Source: Thermobrachium celere DSM 8682
Lineage (GTDB): Bacteria > Bacillota > Clostridia > Clostridiales > Caloramatoraceae
NCBI RefSeq assembly: GCF_000430995.1
Contig: NZ_HF952018.1
Location: 1-64,000, forward strand
DNA length: 64,000 nt
Reading direction: 5' to 3'
Shown here: positions 51,617-60,556 of the stretch, one piece after another
Numbering within the stretch: the stretch's first letter is position 1
How the letters are laid out: each line of letters opens with the position of its first letter
Notes under the pieces: model-generated
The model's database searches: none
What the model saw: only the letters and a program-made list of their open reading frames with translations
What the model was told of the DNA's origin: nothing
Translations under genes and position numbers: made by a program

Positions 51617-52513
51617 ATGGAATTAAAGGGTGATAAAATAAAAAAGGTTGAAAAGGTTGAGGATGGGTATGTAGTTTATATGCTAGATAAAATATATCAT
51701 TTAAAGAAGGTAAATATCAAAGAGTCTGAATTGCTTTTTATTAATGAGGTTATTGAATATGTAAATAACAAGGGATTTGATAATATAATAAAATTCCAAA
51801 GATTATCTAACGGAAAACCCTATATGAAATATGAAGGGGATGTGTATGTAGTTATTGATAACTATAATTTAATTGATTTAAAGAAGGATATAAATGCCTT
51901 ATGCTATGCTAGTTTATTATCAAAATTTCATGCAACAGCTAAAGGTTTTGTAGCAAAGTTTGAAATTAAACCTAGTGTTGTATGGGGGAAGCGATTAGAA
52001 AAATATAAGAATTTATATAGAGTTTTGGAAAAGTTCATAGATGAGGTAAGTAGTAAAAGTAAGCATAATGAATTTGAACAACAAGTAATTCCTTATTTGG
52101 ATGAATTAAAATCAAGAAGCAAAAAATCGATGAAGGTACTAAGAAGTTTTAGTTATATAGATCTGCTTGAGACTAGCATGAAAAACAAAGAAATTGTGCT
52201 TTATGATATAGGGAAAAATTCACTAGCAGAAAAAGATAGTAGACATTTTATATATAATGTCTTTGACATTTCATATGGATTGATTGAGGAAGATTTAGCA
52301 GTGCTAATAAAAAAATGCAATAAAAATTTAAAAGAGAATATTATAGATATATACAAAGAGAACTCACCAAGAGAATTAAATATAGATGTTCTAGAGGCAT
52401 ATATTCTATTTCCAGAAAATACACTAAAGGTTATAAGGGATTACGTTAAACAAAGGGATTTAAGTTTAATTGATAAATTTAAAAAGGCCTCTATTAAGGA
52501 TGGAGTGAGGTGA
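51617..52513 (+). CDS. CotS-like paralogue without catalytic loop (pseudokinase)
   Basis: A 298-residue protein that shares the CotS outline: N-terminal YHLKKVNIKESELLFINEVI, KPYMKYEGDVYVVID, LLSKFHATAKGF, and C-terminal LEAYILFPENTLK. Where active copies have CHHDxxxHN and DFDY, this protein reads VLYDIGKNSLAEKDSRHF and VFDISYG, so the catalytic His-Asp and Asn are missing. The frame is intact and preceded by AGGAGTG. It is best viewed as a pseudokinase, not a pseudogene. It sits between two intact cotS genes. Confidence 0.8.
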   Translation: MELKGDKIKKVEKVEDGYVVYMLDKIYHLKKVNIKESELLFINEVIEYVNNKGFDNIIKFQRLSNGKPYMKYEGDVYVVIDNYNLIDLKKDINALCYASLLSKFHATAKGFVAKFEIKPSVVWGKRLEKYKNLYRVLEKFIDEVSSKSKHNEFEQQVIPYLDELKSRSKKSMKVLRSFSYIDLLETSMKNKEIVLYDIGKNSLAEKDSRHFIYNVFDISYGLIEEDLAVLIKKCNKNLKENIIDIYKENSPRELNIDVLEAYILFPENTLKVIRDYVKQRDLSLIDKFKKASIKDGVR

Positions 52514-52517
52514 ATAT

Positions 52518-53534
52518 ATGGAGTATAAATTTAGAGATAAGGTTTATTTATCAACTTATATGTTAGATGCTGAATTGTTTGATAAGTATAATTTTTTAGT
52601 TGAAGATGCTGTTCCAATAAGATCAGTTTTTATTTTAAAGACAAATGAAGGGCTAAAGATATTAAAGAAAGTGGATTATAAAATTGAAGAGATTGAGTAT
52701 ATATATGAGGTATTAAATCATATAAGAAGGAGCTACCCCTATATTATAAATTTTAAACAGAGTGTTGAAGGTAAACCTTATGTGGAGTATGAAGGCGGAG
52801 TTTATGTTGTGTTTGATTTAATAGAAGGACGTGAATGTATATATGAAAATCCTGTGGATTTACTTGGTGCCTCAAGATCACTTGCAAAGCTTCATAATGC
52901 TTCAAATGGAATAAAAGTTAAAGATATTAGAAACAATCTTTACAAAATGGATAGTAACATTATCAAAAAGATAAAGGAACTTAATATGTGTAGGGATTTT
53001 GCAGACCTCCACGTTAATAAGACTGATTTTGATAGGCTCTTTTTAGAGTATGCAGATTACTATATAGAACAAGCAAATCTTTCACTAAAAGAGCTTCAGG
53101 AATCAGACTATAGAAAGCTTTGTAGAGATAAATATGTTTTGTGCCATCATGATTTAGCACACCACAATATAATTGTGGACAATGAGGATAACTACTATTT
53201 TGTAGACTTTGATTACTGCATGATAGACTTACCATATCATGATTTGTGCAATTTTATTACAAAGGCAATAAAACATAATATGTGGAATGTTGATATGGCA
53301 GATACAATACTTCAAGGATATTCAATGATAAGAAAACTAGAACCAAATGAGTTAAAGGTTTTATATGCATATCTTTTATTTCCACAGGATTTTTACGATA
53401 TAACAATAAGCTATTATATGAAAACAAGAGGTTGGGATGAAGATGAATTTTTTGAAAAGCTTAAGAGAAAGGCAGAATATAAAGAGGATAGAGAAAAGTT
53501 CCTAAAGGATTTTAAAGAGCTTATACAAATTTAA
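52518..53534 (+). CDS. cotS: CotS-family spore-coat kinase-like protein (B)
   Basis: A 338-residue CotS-type protein. Lys in LKILKKVDYK, GGVYVVFDLIEGREC, catalytic loop LCHHDLAHHNIIVD near 212-225 and YFVDFDYCMIDLPYHDL near 231-247 are intact. It begins four bases after the pseudokinase stop and is in the same operon as the A copy. Overall structure matches the copies at 50349 and 54826. Confidence 0.9.
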   Translation: MEYKFRDKVYLSTYMLDAELFDKYNFLVEDAVPIRSVFILKTNEGLKILKKVDYKIEEIEYIYEVLNHIRRSYPYIINFKQSVEGKPYVEYEGGVYVVFDLIEGRECIYENPVDLLGASRSLAKLHNASNGIKVKDIRNNLYKMDSNIIKKIKELNMCRDFADLHVNKTDFDRLFLEYADYYIEQANLSLKELQESDYRKLCRDKYVLCHHDLAHHNIIVDNEDNYYFVDFDYCMIDLPYHDLCNFITKAIKHNMWNVDMADTILQGYSMIRKLEPNELKVLYAYLLFPQDFYDITISYYMKTRGWDEDEFFEKLKRKAEYKEDREKFLKDFKELIQI

Positions 53535-53558
53535 AAGTGCTGCTATAGGGCAGCACTT
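53535..53558. terminator. Terminator between convergent cotS and GT4
   Basis: AAGTGCTGC and GCAGCACTT around a 6-base loop with T-rich flank. Confidence 0.8.
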
Positions 53559-53561
53559 ATT

Positions 53562-54674
53562 TTATGAATTCAAAATTTCAATTGTTTCTACAGCTGTTTT
53601 CTTCCATGAATACATGCTACTTCTTTTTAGGGACTTTAGAACCATTTTAAAATACAAGGTCTCATCATTTAATAGAAGGAGCATTTTTTCTTTTATATCA
53701 TCCACATCATATGGATTAATATATAATGTATCTTCACCTAAAATTTCTGGTATAGATGTTTTATTTGAAGCTATAGTTGGTGTTCCACAGGCCATTGCTT
53801 CAAGAGGTGGAAGACCAAATCCCTCATAAAATGAAGGATAAACAAATATCTTTGCAGCGTTATAAAATATTGGTAGTTCCTCAACAGGAACATATCCTGT
53901 AAATATTACATCATCCTTTAGATTAAGCTTATATGATAGGTCCCTGTAATCATAGTAGGATCTGCCCTTTTTACCTAGTATAACAAGTTTAATAGGCTTT
54001 TTATATTTTTCCTTTAAAAGTGCAAAGGCCTGTATAAGTCCCTTTATGTTTTTTCTAGGGCTAAATCCACCAACATATAATATAAATTCTTCATCTATAC
54101 CATAATTTCTTTTAACAAAGTTTTTGCATACTTCTTTATCCATCGGAACATAGAATTCTTCTGCTGCAAGGTAGGTTACATATATTTTATCTTCAGGAAA
54201 ACCCAGCGTTTCTGAAATGTCCTTCTTTGAAAAGTTTGAAACGGTAATTATTCCATCAATCCTTTTTATTATTTGAGGAACTTCCTTAAGATAAATATCA
54301 AGATATTGTGGCCCTACAGTTTCAGGCATTTTATATGGAATGACATCATGAAGTGTTATAAAAAACTTGCACATCTTTTCAGAGGGTAGTCCTATACCGT
54401 TTTGTGGAACAAGATACACATCTATACCAGTGTTGCTTATTACATTAGGAATATATACATCTTCCCAGAAAGTATCTTTACTTCTATCATCAATAATATT
54501 TACTTTTATATTACTTGGAATATCCAAATCAGAGTTGTTTTCGTTTGGTAAAAAGAAGGTATAATTATTTATTTTGTCTAGCCTACAGATGTTATATATA
54601 AGCTGATATGTGTATGTGCCAATTCCAGTTCCACGATACCATCTTGCAGCACGTGCATCAATTCCTATTTTCAT
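53562..54674 (-). CDS. GT4-family glycosyltransferase (copy 2)
   Basis: A 370-residue GT-B glycosyltransferase closely related to the one at 49081. It has [20 protein letters not shown] at the start, [20 protein letters not shown] and [16 protein letters not shown] with the E-x7-E donor site. ATG after AAGGTGTAAAG. It is divergent from the cotS gene at 54826 as copy 1 is from cotS A, so the GT4/CotS pair appears duplicated. Confidence 0.9.
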   Translation of the reverse strand: MKIGIDARAARWYRGTGIGTYTYQLIYNICRLDKINNYTFFLPNENNSDLDIPSNIKVNIIDDRSKDTFWEDVYIPNVISNTGIDVYLVPQNGIGLPSEKMCKFFITLHDVIPYKMPETVGPQYLDIYLKEVPQIIKRIDGIITVSNFSKKDISETLGFPEDKIYVTYLAAEEFYVPMDKEVCKNFVKRNYGIDEEFILYVGGFSPRKNIKGLIQAFALLKEKYKKPIKLVILGKKGRSYYDYRDLSYKLNLKDDVIFTGYVPVEELPIFYNAAKIFVYPSFYEGFGLPPLEAMACGTPTIASNKTSIPEILGEDTLYINPYDVDDIKEKMLLLLNDETLYFKMVLKSLKRSSMYSWKKTAVETIEILNS

Positions 54675-54825
54675 CTTTACACCTTTATAAATAATTTCTA
54701 CTATATCATAATATGTATTAATTTATAAAATGTGAAAAAGGTATATAAGTAGTTTAATAAATTTATCTTTCTTTTGGAATAGTTGTATAAATTGTAACAT
54801 AAAAATGAATAAAGGGGGTGGAAGT

Positions 54826-55818
54826 ATGGTTAGAGAAACTGAAATATCAAATCAGTTTGGTTTTAGAATATATGATTGTATTCCTAAAAAGGGAGTGTAC
54901 CTATTAAAAACTGATAAAGGAGATAAGTGTTTAAAGAAAATATCCTATGGAATACAAAAATTAAATTACATCTACAAAGCTAAAAACCATATAATTGAAA
55001 ATGGTTTTGATAAGGTTGATAGATATAATCTTTCCCTTAATAATACACCTTATGCTTTAGTTAACGAAGACATCTATATTGTAACAGACTGGATTGATGG
55101 GAGAGAATGTGATTTTAAAGTATTAGATGATGTAAAGATTGCTGCAAGGACATTGGCAAAATTCCATATTGCAGCAAGGGGATTTGATTTAGAGGAAAAT
55201 TTAAAGGTTAGATGCGACATAGGGAAATTACCTTATACTTTGGAAAAGAGGCTTAGAACATTAAAGAAAATGAAGGATATGGCACATAAAAATAAAAAGA
55301 AGACTGAGTTTGATATGCTCTATTTATCTAATGTTGATAGTTTTTATGAACTTGCAAAGCAGGCATATGAAGCATTAAACTTAGAGGTTTATAAAGCCCT
55401 TTGTGAAAAATCATTAAGTGAAAAGGTTTTGTGCCATCATGATTATACTTATCATAATATATTAATAAAGAGTCCAGAAGAGGTGTATATTGTTGACTTT
55501 GATTATTTAAAATCTGAAGTACAAGTTTATGATTTATCTACTCTTATTGTTAAGACTTTAAAGAGAGTAGATTGGAATTTAGATTACGCAAAAGATATTT
55601 TAAAGGAATATACAAGTATTAAGGAACTTACAAGTGAAGAAAAGCATGTTCTAAAGGTTTTATTAAGATTTCCTCAGAGATTTTGGAGGCTTGCAAATAG
55701 GTATTATTATAAAGAGGCAACTTGGACAGAGACAACTTTCCTAAAGAAGATGAAGGAAATAGTTGATGAAAAGGAAAAATATTTAGAGTTCTTAAGCAAG
55801 TTAGATGAGATATTGTAA
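54826..55818 (+). CDS. cotS: CotS-family spore-coat kinase-like protein (C)
   Basis: A 330-residue CotS-type protein. LLKTDKGDKCLKKI (ATP-site Lys), IYIVTDWIDGRECD, FHIAARGFD, catalytic loop LCHHDYTYHNILI near 204-216 and VYIVDFDYLKSE near 222-233 are intact. ATG at 54826 after GGGGGTGGAAGT. It is a single-gene unit between GT4 copy 2 and yabG with a long terminator after it. A sigma-E or sigma-K promoter is expected but was not clearly read. Confidence 0.9.
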   Translation: MVRETEISNQFGFRIYDCIPKKGVYLLKTDKGDKCLKKISYGIQKLNYIYKAKNHIIENGFDKVDRYNLSLNNTPYALVNEDIYIVTDWIDGRECDFKVLDDVKIAARTLAKFHIAARGFDLEENLKVRCDIGKLPYTLEKRLRTLKKMKDMAHKNKKKTEFDMLYLSNVDSFYELAKQAYEALNLEVYKALCEKSLSEKVLCHHDYTYHNILIKSPEEVYIVDFDYLKSEVQVYDLSTLIVKTLKRVDWNLDYAKDILKEYTSIKELTSEEKHVLKVLLRFPQRFWRLANRYYYKEATWTETTFLKKMKEIVDEKEKYLEFLSKLDEIL

Positions 55819-55901: not shown

Positions 55902-55949
55902 TAACCTATTATTTAGTTATTTCATATTATATACAAAGGAGGTGAAGTT

Positions 55950-56822
55950 ATGGAGGAATTCAAAGTGGGGGACATTGTGGTAAGAAAATCCTATGGCGGA
56001 GATGTGTATTTTAAAATTATGGAAATAGTAAAAAAGCAGGATGGAAGCAATCTCTATATTTTAAAGGGCACAAACTATAGACTAATTGCTGATGCTCAAG
56101 AAGAAGATTTAGAAAAACCTCCTATGTCAAAGATAACAAAGGATGAGGATGAAAGTTTAAAGAGGGTAAATACCCTTATAAAAAAAGCTGTACTTCAGAG
56201 GAGAAATCAAGGGACCTTTCAGCGAATAAACACCCCGAGTACTAATTCTAATATAACCTTTGGACGACCGGGGAAGGTCCTTCATATAGATGGAGATATG
56301 GAATATTTAAATATATGCCTTAAGGGTTATAAACAGCTAGGAATTGAGGCGTATGGAAGGTTTGTACCAGAGGTCAGACAACCTGATGTTGTGTTGGAAC
56401 TTTTAAGTGAGATAAGGCCAGATATATTAGTTTTGACGGGGCATGATGCAATGCTAAAGGGAAGTCAGGATTATAAAAGTTTAGATAGCTACAGAAACTC
56501 AAGATATTTTGTAGAGGCTGTAAGAAGAGCAAGGGAATATGAGCCGTCTTATGATGATTTAGTTATATTTGCAGGTGCTTGTCAATCCTTCTATGAGGCA
56601 TTAATTGAGGCTGGAGCAAACTTTGCAAGTTCTCCTAACAGAGTTTTTATTCATGCTATGGATCCAGTTTTTATATGTGAGAAGATAGCATTTTCAAGTA
56701 TTTCCAAATTTTTAAATCCAAAGGAAATAGTTGATAGTACAATTACAGGAATAAAGGGTATAGGTGGGCTTGAAACTAGAGGTAAATACAGAGAAGGGCT
56801 ACCTAAATCACCTTATGCATAG
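55950..56822 (+). CDS. yabG: Sporulation-specific protease YabG
   Basis: A 290-residue coat-processing protease (peptidase family U57). N-terminal FKVGDIVVRKSYGGDVYFKI, the central VLHIDGDMEYLNICLKGYKQ, and segments GHDAM and FAGACQSFYEALIEAGANFA (Cys-containing) and FIHAMDPVF are the recognisable family regions. In Bacillus it cleaves coat proteins such as SafA and CotB; in clostridia it also processes preproSleB-type or CspBA proteins. ATG after GGAGGTGAAGTT. The family normally lies between ksgA and veg, as here in expanded form. Confidence 0.94.
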   Translation: MEEFKVGDIVVRKSYGGDVYFKIMEIVKKQDGSNLYILKGTNYRLIADAQEEDLEKPPMSKITKDEDESLKRVNTLIKKAVLQRRNQGTFQRINTPSTNSNITFGRPGKVLHIDGDMEYLNICLKGYKQLGIEAYGRFVPEVRQPDVVLELLSEIRPDILVLTGHDAMLKGSQDYKSLDSYRNSRYFVEAVRRAREYEPSYDDLVIFAGACQSFYEALIEAGANFASSPNRVFIHAMDPVFICEKIAFSSISKFLNPKEIVDSTITGIKGIGGLETRGKYREGLPKSPYA

Positions 56823-56833
56823 GTGGGGTGTTT

Positions 56834-58147
56834 ATGAAAATAATGGGTGTACCATTAAGAAACTTGGTTTTAAATAGCATTCTTGTTTTAGATTTAGATA
56901 TTTTTAATTTGCCCTTTGAGGTTTTAAAGGCTCTCATTACTCTAAAGAGAAGTGAACTTATAGTTCATGTAAAAAACTCAGGTTTTTATAAAAAAGAATA
57001 TTCAGGTAGTATAAACACTGATAAGTTTGATGAATTAGATAGTGATAAAAAGAGCATATTAAATAGGGCTTATGATGAAACAGAAGGGATTGTTGTTATA
57101 AACAATTCCGAACCAGTAGCACTCTTTTTTACTAAATGTTGTTGTGGTGGAACTGCAAATTCAGAGGCTATATTGGGATATAAAATTAATTATTTAAGGA
57201 AGGTTCTATGTAAAAGATGTAGTCAAAGGTGTGAGGAGATAAAAGTAGACTGTAGCAAAATAGCTGAAACTTTAGGATGTAAAATTAACTACAAAGAACA
57301 AATTAGGGAAATGATTAAAGATGTATCAAGGGATGATACTGGAAGGATTAGAAAATTAAATTTACTTGGAAAGGAGATTACGGGAGATAAATTAGTTGAA
57401 ATTTTAAATTTAAAGAGTAATAGGGTTTATTTTAAAGAAGACAGTATAGTATTTAAAGTATTAGGAGAAGGCCTAGGGCTTGGTATATGCATAGAAGGTG
57501 CATGTAGTATGGCCGGCGAAAATAAAGACTTTAAAGATATAATAGAATACTATTATACAGGAGTAGAATTTATTAAATTAGATGAGTATAAAATAATAAA
57601 TACTCTTGAGGGAAGGAAAATAGTGATAGATGCAGGTCACGGTGGAAGAGATTTAGGACATGTAAATGGAGATTTTGTAGAGAAGGATTTGAATTTAAAC
57701 ATTGCACTTAAATTATGTGAGCTATTAAAACTTAAGGGTGCAGAGTGTATCTTAACAAGGGAAAAGGATGAGGATGTTACACTTTCGGATAGAGTAAAAC
57801 TTATAAACAAAAGAAGGCCTGATATATTCATTAGCATACATCAAAATGGTTTTCCTCAAGAAAGCGTCAATGGAATTGAGGTCTACTGTTTTAAGGATGA
57901 TAAGGATGCATTAAATTTAGCAAATAAAATATTAAAAAGAATTTCAGAGGATGTAAAAATTAAAAATAGAGGTTGTAGGGATGGAGATTATTTTATATTG
58001 AGGGAAAGTAAGAGTACAGGTATTGTGGTTGAATGCTTATATATTACAGGTAATGTGGATAGTAAATTAATAAATGACGACAATTTAGATAAAATAGCAG
58101 AGGCTATGTTTAAAGGAATTTGTGAATATTTTGAGGTTAGTATTTAG
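56834..58147 (+). CDS. SpoIID-like domain fused to Amidase_3 (N-acetylmuramoyl-L-alanine amidase)
   Basis: A 437-residue fusion. Residues about 1-250 read like SpoIID: LPFEVLKALITLKRSEL, ALFFTKCCCGGTANSE, VLGEGLGLGICIEGACSMAG and IIEYYYTG. The catalytic Glu expected just before the LPFEVLKAL segment in SpoIID is not evident. Residues about 263-437 form Amidase_3 with zinc ligands at IDAGHGGRD (His), DFVEKDLN (Glu), FISIHQN (His) and VVECLYI (catalytic Glu). No signal peptide is seen. ATG at 56834 is used because the GTG at 56828 is part of the SD. A function in septal or cortex peptidoglycan hydrolysis during sporulation is inferred. Confidence 0.8.
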   Translation: MKIMGVPLRNLVLNSILVLDLDIFNLPFEVLKALITLKRSELIVHVKNSGFYKKEYSGSINTDKFDELDSDKKSILNRAYDETEGIVVINNSEPVALFFTKCCCGGTANSEAILGYKINYLRKVLCKRCSQRCEEIKVDCSKIAETLGCKINYKEQIREMIKDVSRDDTGRIRKLNLLGKEITGDKLVEILNLKSNRVYFKEDSIVFKVLGEGLGLGICIEGACSMAGENKDFKDIIEYYYTGVEFIKLDEYKIINTLEGRKIVIDAGHGGRDLGHVNGDFVEKDLNLNIALKLCELLKLKGAECILTREKDEDVTLSDRVKLINKRRPDIFISIHQNGFPQESVNGIEVYCFKDDKDALNLANKILKRISEDVKIKNRGCRDGDYFILRESKSTGIVVECLYITGNVDSKLINDDNLDKIAEAMFKGICEYFEVSI

Positions 58148-58200
58148 TTGTGGTAATGCCAAGATGTTTATAAAATGTCTTGGCATTACCACAACTTTTT
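58147..58200 (+). terminator. Strong terminator after the SpoIID-amidase gene
   Basis: An 18-bp perfect stem (GTTGTGGTAATGCCAAGA and complement) with a 13-base loop and TTTTT. The last base of the stop codon is in the stem. Confidence 0.92.
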
Positions 58201-58371: not shown

Positions 58372-58398
58372 TGTATTTGTGGAAAGAGGGTGTTTGTT

Positions 58399-58656
58399 AT
58401 GAAGGGAAGAGAACTTTTAGAAGCCATCAAAAAAAATATCGATGAGCATGTAGGCGAAAAGGTTCTTTTAAAGGCAAACAACGGTAGAAAAAAGGTTTTA
58501 GTTAAAGAAGGAATATTAGAGCAAACATACCCAAATATATTCGTAGTTAGAGTTGAAGCAAGTGACAATACAACAAGAGTAATATCATACAGCTATTCCG
58601 ACATATTAACTAAAAATGTTCAAATAGTTTTTGAAAACAACGAAGTGGCAATTTGA
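58399..58656 (+). CDS. veg: Veg family protein
   Basis: An 85-residue protein (MKGRELLEAIKKNIDEHVGE...). Family signatures GEKVLLKANNGRKKV, EGILEQTYPNIFVVRV and VISYSYSDILTKNVQIVF are intact. Veg stimulates biofilm-gene expression in B. subtilis and its fold is SH3-like; the molecular target is uncertain. ATG at 58399 follows AAAGAGGGTGTTTGTT. It is transcribed from two tandem sigma-A promoters and followed by two hairpins. Confidence 0.96.
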   Translation: MKGRELLEAIKKNIDEHVGEKVLLKANNGRKKVLVKEGILEQTYPNIFVVRVEASDNTTRVISYSYSDILTKNVQIVFENNEVAI

Positions 58657-58993: not shown

Positions 58994-60556
58994 ATGTCAT
59001 TAGAATTAATTAGAGATATGCTTAGCTACGAAAGAATAATTTCAGAAGGTTCAAGTCAAACAATGGTAAGTGGTGATATTGTAATTGACGAGATGAACCC
59101 AGAGATAGATAAGATACTAAGCGTTGATGGAGAAGTTACTTCAGTTGAAACTACTGTACTTGAGGATAAAGTTTTAGTAGATGGAAGAATGTCCTTTAAG
59201 ATACTTTATGCATCAAGGGGTGAGAGAGCAGAAGTAAAGATTCAAAAGGCAGATACTAATTTTAAACATTATGTACAGGCACCAATGGCAGCTCCTAATA
59301 TGGTTTGCAAAGTTGTTCCTTCAATTGAAACTCTTGAATATGAAATTGTATCGGATAAGAAATTAAAGGTTAATGCAGTTGTAGTTTTAAAGGCTGTTGT
59401 TTTTGAAAAATGTCAAGTAGAAACAATAGTAGATATTAAGGGGCAGGATCTTCAATCTCTTAAGGATACAATGAAGGTTTGCGAATTTGTATCTGATGAT
59501 ACATCAAAGGTTATAGTAAAGGGAAACCTAGAACTTCCTCAAGAAAAGGGAGAATTTGCAAACATACTTAAACTTTCAGCACATGTTCATAAGAAGGATA
59601 TTTTAATTCAAGATGGCAAGCTTGTTGTAAATGCATGTGTTCTTTCAAGAGTTTTATTTGAAACTACAAATAATGTATTAATGTCTCAAGATGTTGATAT
59701 TGCCTTTACTAATGAAGTGATGATAGAAAAATTAAAACCAAATATGAAGTGTGATGTATCCTTTAGAATAACAGATGTAGATTATAAAGTATTAGAAAAT
59801 GAAGCAGGAGCAAAGCAGAATTTAGAAATTCAAATATCATTAGATGTAAATGTTAAGACATATAATGAAAGAACTATTGAAAGAACTGTTGATGCCTTTA
59901 CATCAACTTCAAGATTTGAATTTATTAGAGATAATATAAACTCAATAGGATATTATGGTGAAGGCGTTGACAGTCAAACAATAAAAGAGAGAATTACAAT
60001 AGATGATGAGCTTGATGGTATAAGAGATATTGTATATGTAGATGCAAAACCAATATTAACAGAGGTAAAGATTGTAGAGGACAAGGTAGTTTGTGATGGT
60101 GTTCTTGATGTTTGTGCAGTTTATAGAGCAGAAAAGGAAGAAGAGGAGCTTGTAAGCTACAGAGAAGAGATACCATTTAAAGCAGCTGTTTCAATAGATG
60201 GTGCAAAGATAGATATGATTGAGGATGCTGTTGTTAATTTAGAATATCTATCCTTTGACAAGGCATCCCAAAGAGAAATAGATATTAAGGCAATAGTTGA
60301 GGTAGTTGCAAAGCTATATAGTAAGATGGGATTTGATATTGTTAAGAATATAGAAGAGATAGATATAGAAGATAGTCTAAAGAACATGCCAAGCTTAGTT
60401 TTATATGTAGTTCAGCCAAAGGATACATTGTGGAAGATTGCTAAGAAATATTGTACTTCAGTTGATGATATAGTAAAGCTTAATGATATAGAAAATCCTG
60501 ATTTGATTATGCCAGGAATGAAGCTATTAATTCCAAAGAAGGGATTTATGAAATAG
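58994..60556 (+). CDS. sipL: SipL-like spore morphogenetic protein (SPOCS/DUF3794 repeats plus LysM)
   Basis: A 520-residue protein with three SPOCS (DUF3794) repeats (about residues 30-140, 165-280 and 320-430; INSIGYYGEGVDSQTI lies between) and a C-terminal LysM (about 470-517; YVVQPKDTLWKIAKKYC and IMPGMKLLIP). Length and order match SipL, which in C. difficile binds SpoIVA through the LysM and links coat to cortex. SD GGGAGG. No signal peptide, consistent with mother-cell cytoplasmic assembly. It sits where sspF or yabH neighbours lie in Bacillus. Confidence 0.9.
   Translation: MSLELIRDMLSYERIISEGSSQTMVSGDIVIDEMNPEIDKILSVDGEVTSVETTVLEDKVLVDGRMSFKILYASRGERAEVKIQKADTNFKHYVQAPMAAPNMVCKVVPSIETLEYEIVSDKKLKVNAVVVLKAVVFEKCQVETIVDIKGQDLQSLKDTMKVCEFVSDDTSKVIVKGNLELPQEKGEFANILKLSAHVHKKDILIQDGKLVVNACVLSRVLFETTNNVLMSQDVDIAFTNEVMIEKLKPNMKCDVSFRITDVDYKVLENEAGAKQNLEIQISLDVNVKTYNERTIERTVDAFTSTSRFEFIRDNINSIGYYGEGVDSQTIKERITIDDELDGIRDIVYVDAKPILTEVKIVEDKVVCDGVLDVCAVYRAEKEEEELVSYREEIPFKAAVSIDGAKIDMIEDAVVNLEYLSFDKASQREIDIKAIVEVVAKLYSKMGFDIVKNIEEIDIEDSLKNMPSLVLYVVQPKDTLWKIAKKYCTSVDDIVKLNDIENPDLIMPGMKLLIPKKGFMK

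Follow-up and report, generated by a model that had tools for sequence, protein, structure and literature searches.

What does a protein do that joins a SpoIID-type region to an Amidase_3 domain in a single chain and is encoded between the sporulation genes yabG and veg? This question is raised by one gene in the window, by which we mean the whole stretch of 64,000 nucleotides of Thermobrachium celere DSM 8682 that was analysed. The original prediction, in which the coordinates of the open reading frame were exact, had suggested for its product either a denuded-glycan-binding amidase or a mother-cell cytoplasmic variant tied to the YabG-Veg neighbourhood. The best explanation overall, which in our estimate has an even chance of being right, is a protein made in the mother cell and conserved for its binding of peptidoglycan, most likely at the coat-cortex interface; in Caloramator it is probably also an active amidase.

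The genes of the locus follow one another in the order yabG, fusion, veg and sipL-like gene:

55904..55933, + strand: sigma-K-type promoter upstream of yabG (AC at 55904-55905, 17 nt, then CATATTATATA at 55923-55933)
55950..56822, + strand: yabG, sporulation protease (PF05582, 398 bits; TIGR02855, 373 bits, above the cut-off of 270)
56834..58147, + strand: SpoIID-Amidase_3 fusion gene, 437 aa (ATG at 56834, stop ends at 58147)
58148..58194, + strand: terminator-like hairpin with a 20-bp stem, directly 3' of the fusion gene
58390..58656, + strand: veg (PF06257, 105 bits; ORF from GTG at 58390, ATG at 58399)
58994..60556, + strand: sipL-like gene, three SPOCS domains and LysM

Only 11 nt separate the stop codon of yabG from the start of the fusion gene. 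In C. difficile the gene order is yabG, then veg and sipL (PMC10681294), and the fusion is absent from this yabG locus. Among 56 fusion loci, veg lies at most 700 nt downstream in 47 and yabG lies upstream in 25; both are present in 19 and at least one of them adjoins in 53, which bears out the proposed tie to the YabG-Veg neighbourhood. The three loci with neither neighbour comprise two near contig ends (L068, L087) and one with veg 2 kb off (L078). Where yabG is not adjacent, a conserved, divergent ORF of about 600 aa starting with M/VKGTIVSAW or similar is often found upstream of the fusion (L060, L068, L071, L085, L089, L090 and others). Farther upstream in the window, positions 51617-55818 hold three related ORFs around an opposite-strand gene; we take the three to be CotS/CotI-type kinase-like spore-coat proteins, and the opposite-strand gene is presumably glycosyltransferase-like. 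On the complete chromosome of Caloramator sp. mosi_1 (L038, L010), yabG is in pieces, as are the fusion and the SipL-like gene, and the splitting of all three genes in one stretch suggests sequencing errors in the assembly, not decay.

An artefact or a wrong joining of two genes was rejected as the origin of the fusion, because the same single ORF is found in 56 of the best 80 loci out of 236 candidates, the remainder being one broken fusion (L038) and 23 SpoIID-type proteins without amidase. As these 80 loci are the best of the 236, weaker fusions may be missing from the set. A full-length fusion match was obtained in 19 of 293 genomes of the class, the window genome counted. When the window genome and 39 relatives were searched, the fusion was found in 14 of the 16 genomes of the window's own family (f1, which includes Caloramator and Fonticella), in both genomes of family f3 and in none of the 21 of family f2. 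One of the f1 fusions is broken, one is cut by a contig end and one has a stop codon near its start. The two f1 genomes without the fusion (G006, G007) gave best matches of 1.8e-21 and 1.4e-25, in both cases to the amidase part only. Nine of the ten sampled genomes of family f20 carry the fusion, which is absent from G170. Its absence from all f2 genomes, from two f1 members and from the C. difficile locus indicates that sporulation can in general do without it. The window genome is closest to Caloramator, and among the matches listed the top-ranked relative of the N-terminal half was that of C. proteoclasticus (76%). A tree built from the 62-row alignment (10 duplicate genomes removed first; L043 omitted from the tree) separated 61 fusions from 25 SpoIID-type proteins by a branch that has a support of 100/100. 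To judge from these alignments, the fusions are a clade distinct from SpoIID and a conserved family built of known domains. No published account of a SpoIID-Amidase_3 fusion was found among the matches listed from the open-licence PMC literature.

The features of the fusion protein that matter for its function map to the gene as follows:

56834..57583, + strand: SpoIID-fold domain, residues 1-250 (TIGR02870, profile, hhalign and AlphaFold2 evidence)
56888..56890, + strand: codon of L19, which hhalign aligns with the catalytic Glu of SpoIID; next come D20, L21 and D22
57140..57142, + strand: Cys103, the first of the four cysteines that are invariant in the family (the others being C126, C129 and C219)
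57209..57220, + strand: Cys126-x-x-Cys129, from the alignment of fusion rows
57488..57490, + strand: Cys219, in a motif that is commonly GHGVGMSQ in SpoIID and GLGLGICI here
57608..58144, + strand: Amidase_3 domain, residues 259-437, with H269, E283, H336 and E400 present

The N-terminal half gave no match to the Pfam SpoIID profile PF08486, and besides Amidase_3 no other Pfam domain was found in the window protein up to E 5, hence no SPOR repeats. It matches NCBIfam TIGR02870 over profile positions 145-335 (2e-28; 99.5 bits, below the equivalog cut-off of 234.75), and a profile of the N-terminal halves of 14 relatives finds the sequences of three SpoIID crystal structures, matching them across the catalytic domain with E values of 2e-36 to 7e-36; with hhalign the probability against true SpoIIDs was 100. 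In the AlphaFold2 model of the window protein (pLDDT 90.9, pTM 0.78), residues 1-250 align with SpoIID of B. anthracis (4rwr; Z 17.0, rmsd 3.9, 197 aligned) and of C. difficile (5i1t; Z 15.9). The TIGR02870 and hhalign matches show that the N-terminal half does find SpoIID profiles, a point on which the original prediction could have failed.

The match of the C-terminal half to Amidase_3 (PF01520) reaches 161.2 bits at a gathering cut-off of 27 (E 3.3e-47), and residues 250-435 of the model align with amidases (4rn7, Z 29.1). We take H269, E283, H336 and E400 to be the metal/catalytic residues of Amidase_3, and with this quartet present the window amidase is probably catalytically active in Caloramator. 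As a CwlD it does not qualify, with 119.1 bits at a TIGR02883 equivalog cut-off of 221.55. All 55 aligned fusions match both Amidase_3 and TIGR02870, and 48 of the 55 match PF08486 (this alignment omits L043, which ends at a contig end, L052, which has a long uncertain N-terminus, and L013, L016, L017, L019 and L021). Pfam, NCBIfam, hhalign and the model thus agree on a SpoIID-type region joined to an Amidase_3 domain with an intact quartet, as had been read from the window. A weak Pfam Tox-HDC match was seen in five members of the family (best 1.3e-4) and is probably due to chance or to a cysteine/histidine pattern.

At the column of the SpoIID catalytic Glu, neither the hhalign nor the MAFFT alignment gave a Glu in the window protein. 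With hhalign, L19 is opposite the Glu and D20-L21 is an insertion; with MAFFT, L21 is found there, two positions further along this lengthened loop. The earlier reading that the catalytic Glu is not evident holds, and alignment, which might have placed a Glu at this position and so spoken against it, did not do so. An acidic residue is present near the column in most rows of the window's family, and D20 or D22 might act as a substitute acid in the window protein. Across 62 distinct fusion rows the column has Glu in 17 and another residue in 31 rows outside f1 and in all 14 f1 rows, which have a changed loop and a less certain register. Residues found in the 31 rows outside f1 are N, S, Q, T, K, R or D, with no local insertion except in L103. 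Among SpoIID-type rows, Glu is kept in 24 of 25. On the tree the column shows at least three state changes among the fusions, for which loss and gain are indistinguishable. The GHG motif of SpoIID reads GLG in the window protein, and its histidine is lost in 27 of the 62 fusion rows, the window (L) included.

Cys103, C126, C129 and C219 are invariant in 62/62 rows, and also in 55/55 rows of the alignment used for the amidase counts; C126 and C129 fall within the lowest-confidence stretch of the window AlphaFold2 model. The zinc site of C. difficile SpoIID consists of H134, C140, H145 and C146 (PMC6221140), and the four invariant cysteines were rejected as its equivalent since they occupy other positions. 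The loop of that zinc site is absent from the window's family and appears to be present in many other fusions. The cysteine pattern of the fusion family was also seen in four Glu-bearing SpoIID-type proteins (L091, L092, L097 and L101, the last with three of the four positions), which are possible relatives of the fusion ancestor.

Hydropathy analysis revealed no export segment, signal peptide or membrane anchor in the window protein or in the 55 aligned fusions. The maximal 15-residue mean hydropathy near the N-terminus ranged from 0.55 to 1.83 in the 55 fusions, whose start codons were chosen by rule, vs. 2.15 to 3.73 in 26 SpoIID-type proteins. With 1.63, the window protein stays below the SpoIID-type range, in line with the absence of a signal peptide noted before.

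A promoter element AC-N15-17-CATAnnATRTA recurs in most of the loci. Its relaxed -10 motif lies ahead of yabG in 20 of 26 loci, where 0.3 would be expected; of the 29 loci in which yabG is not adjacent, 27 have it ahead of the fusion (0.6 expected). These counts are for a motif tuned on the same, mutually related loci. The strict form CATAnnnTA gave a smaller excess and was present in 15/26 loci for yabG (2.6 expected) and in 22/29 for the fusion (6.0 expected), or in 19/29 vs. 5.7 expected when a shorter region was taken. An AC located 15-17 nt upstream of the -10 was seen at 46 of 47 sites and a sigma-E-like ATA at none of the 47; promoters of sigma-E and sigma-K have a common -10 and differ by T vs. 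C in the -35 (PMC517825). These footprints suggest that the fusion is synthesised in the mother cell under sigma-K, and the mother-cell origin proposed earlier gains from them as well as from analogy with yabG of C. difficile, which is under sigma-K control (PMC3789822).

Other wall enzymes are encoded elsewhere in the genome. A true SpoIID (369 bits, cut-off 234.75), a SpoIIP (205 bits, cut-off 123.15) and a true CwlD (249 bits, cut-off 221.55) were all found, as the original prediction had proposed to check, and the fusion was rejected as a replacement of any of the three. SleB (308 bits, cut-off 236.5) is also present, together with a shorter second PF07486 protein that was taken for CwlJ. 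A second Amidase_3 protein without signal peptide (L117:1632-2372, G000:C53) begins with MKICIDPGHGG and has a C-terminal extension that we take to resemble an SH3 domain; it is a candidate mother-cell lysis enzyme. Directly beside spoIIP lies an ORF (L119:1-1404, G000:C32) that is presumably transposase-like.

The active sites have been lost in part of the family. In the 55 rows the amidase quartet is intact in 44, the window included, degenerate in 10 and changed from E to D in one. Among 17 further loci, 10 of which are from genomes already in the first set, it is intact in eight, degenerate in eight that all belong to family f20, and in one it shows the E-to-D change with Glu kept; the eight f20 loci are all that were retrieved from this family (G188 lying outside these eight). 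Distinct amidase-degenerate loci number 14, namely L049, nine others of the 55 rows and four new ones, and 13 of the 14 belong to one lineage. All 14 are also without the SpoIID Glu and are called double-dead below. Most of the named double-dead loci come from metagenome assemblies, and the lineage may not be representative of Caloramator. In L138 the Glu is kept and the amidase has the E-to-D change; transglycosylase activity may persist in this protein or in other Glu-bearing rows.

Values of dN/dS were between 0.05 and 0.18 in 20 of 24 comparisons, double-dead pairs included, the remaining four being not computable because of saturated dS. For the window fusion and its two closest relatives dN/dS was 0.06-0.09 with dS near saturation, and for two close double-dead pairs it was 0.08 and 0.10 in the SpoIID part and 0.17 and 0.12 in the amidase part; relative to dS, change is faster in the amidase half. 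Purifying selection acts on both domains where dN/dS is computable. The AlphaFold2 model of the double-dead L076 protein (pLDDT 87.7) keeps both folds, with Z 29.4 to 4rn7 and Z 20.0 to 5i1t. A pseudogene was rejected, in the window as in the double-dead lineage, the ORFs being intact and dN/dS low. As active sites were lost while the protein was kept, selection has not preserved the catalytic function of either domain throughout the family; what it has kept are the features of the SpoIID domain common to all rows.

From these results the following course can be proposed. A SpoIID-type protein would have lost its N-terminal membrane anchor and been joined to an Amidase_3 domain. The resulting soluble, non-exported protein would be a late sporulation product of the mother cell, and its gene would be transcribed from a sigma-K-type promoter in common with yabG. 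Without export it could reach peptidoglycan only from the mother-cell side, and the site of contact would be the coat facing the cortex, or the wall after failure of the mother-cell membrane. The SpoIID part would no longer be a dependable lytic transglycosylase and would serve mainly as a glycan-binding module. SpoIID works on strands denuded by SpoIIP (PMC6221140), which makes it plausible that a SpoIID fold without Glu reads denuded glycan and that the amidase joined to it produces such glycan; binding of denuded glycan by the Glu-less domain is assumed by this analogy. In Caloramator the amidase part would probably remove stem peptides from the held glycan, amidase action being an extra where the residues are intact. 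Glycan binding, amidase activity, the place of action and any processing by YabG are in each case what we infer. The label denuded-glycan-binding amidase would cover only part of the family, some members of which keep the Glu and one lineage of which is double-dead.

The coat-cortex interface is favoured because the protein persists in a lineage in which both active sites are gone, and such retention is easier to reconcile with binding or assembly than with lysis of the wall. A CwlC-like mother-cell lysis amidase, unexported and cutting the wall once membrane integrity is lost, with the SpoIID fold replacing SPOR repeats, is a conceivable but rather doubtful reading. It would suit an amidase with its residues present, a presumed glycan-binding module, no export segment and a sigma-K-type promoter, and it has a precedent in CwlC and CwlH, which lyse the B. 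subtilis mother cell under sigma-K (PMC3789822, PMC517825); SPOR domains, moreover, bind denuded glycan, and residues for this binding have been predicted in CwlC (PMC6895207). However, double-dead relatives under selection would be useless in lysis, and the second signal-less Amidase_3 protein could do this job. We consider it unlikely that the fusion is a SleC-like enzyme carried in the coat, cortex-lytic or accessory to germination, which would be a mother-cell product, possibly matured by YabG, and would cut the cortex when the spore germinates. SleB and the CwlJ-like PF07486 protein are already in the genome, the Glu is lost in 45/62 rows, window included, and no pro-region is evident in the window protein. 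A SpoIID-type domain with Glu, as in SleC, was not found in the window protein at the catalytic column of the alignment made to SpoIID. What speaks for such an enzyme is that SleC of C. difficile is under sigma-K control (PMC3789822) and depends on YabG for its processing (PMC10681294), and that the SleC structure 9h68 aligns with the SpoIID-like part of the L076 model at Z 17.5. SleC is also described as uniting transglycosylase and amidase activities (PMC3533761). SleC is not among the 50 whole-model matches listed for the window protein; as it is listed for the L076 model, this absence carries no meaning.

A dual enzyme that still cuts both bonds, D20 or D22 taking over from the SpoIID Glu, is very improbable. 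The acidic residues beside the catalytic column in the window and most rows of its family, and the Glu kept in 17 of the 62 rows, would agree with it, but the GHG histidine is lost in the window and elsewhere, and the 31 rows outside f1 with other residues at the column are free of insertions save for L103. Returning to the idea of a protein that binds where coat and cortex meet, we tentatively suggest a particular form of it, that of a two-headed peptidoglycan reader which is built from two peptidoglycan hydrolases and in which catalysis is optional. Its SpoIID head would bind denuded glycan and its amidase head the glycan-peptide junction, and the protein, made in the mother cell with YabG, would mark or anchor the cortex for coat assembly; one lineage is dead in both heads yet selected.

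The connection of the coat, which is built in the mother-cell cytoplasm, to the cortex across a membrane is poorly known, and the link is usually sought in LysM proteins, SafA and SipL among them. The fusion is a new candidate, on account of its peptidoglycan-enzyme folds, the lack of an export signal, the sigma-K-type promoter and its position next to yabG, veg and sipL. Glu-bearing, SpoIID-dead and double-dead members form a series of natural variants with which binding could be told apart from cutting. Calling every member an N-acetylmuramoyl-L-alanine amidase on the basis of a Pfam match would be misleading for those that are double-dead.

Among known systems, CwlD shares the Amidase_3 domain with the fusion, which differs in falling below the TIGR02883 cut-off. 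Likeness to SpoIID extends to the fold of the catalytic domain, to a helix reading EALKAQ in SpoIID and to the TxNSE, GxGxG and YYYT motifs, whereas the window protein lacks the membrane anchor and the Glu at its column, has GLG for GHG and carries a fused amidase. In addition, the window protein is without the zinc-residue loop of C. difficile SpoIID, and the SpoIID proteins of C. difficile and B. anthracis are without the fusion's four cysteines at those positions. CwlC of Bacillus, composed of Amidase_3 and SPOR, resembles the fusion in combining Amidase_3 with a second wall-binding domain and in its sigma-K timing; like the fusion it is not known to have a signal peptide, and its domain order is the reverse. 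The fusion differs from CwlC in having a SpoIID fold for SPOR repeats, in its linkage to yabG and veg and in that some relatives are without catalytic residues. SleC of Clostridia is not known to have an Amidase_3 domain. It further differs in possessing a pre-pro region (PMC10681294; title of 9h68), and is like the fusion in its SpoIID-type domain, its sigma-K expression in C. difficile and its connection to YabG.
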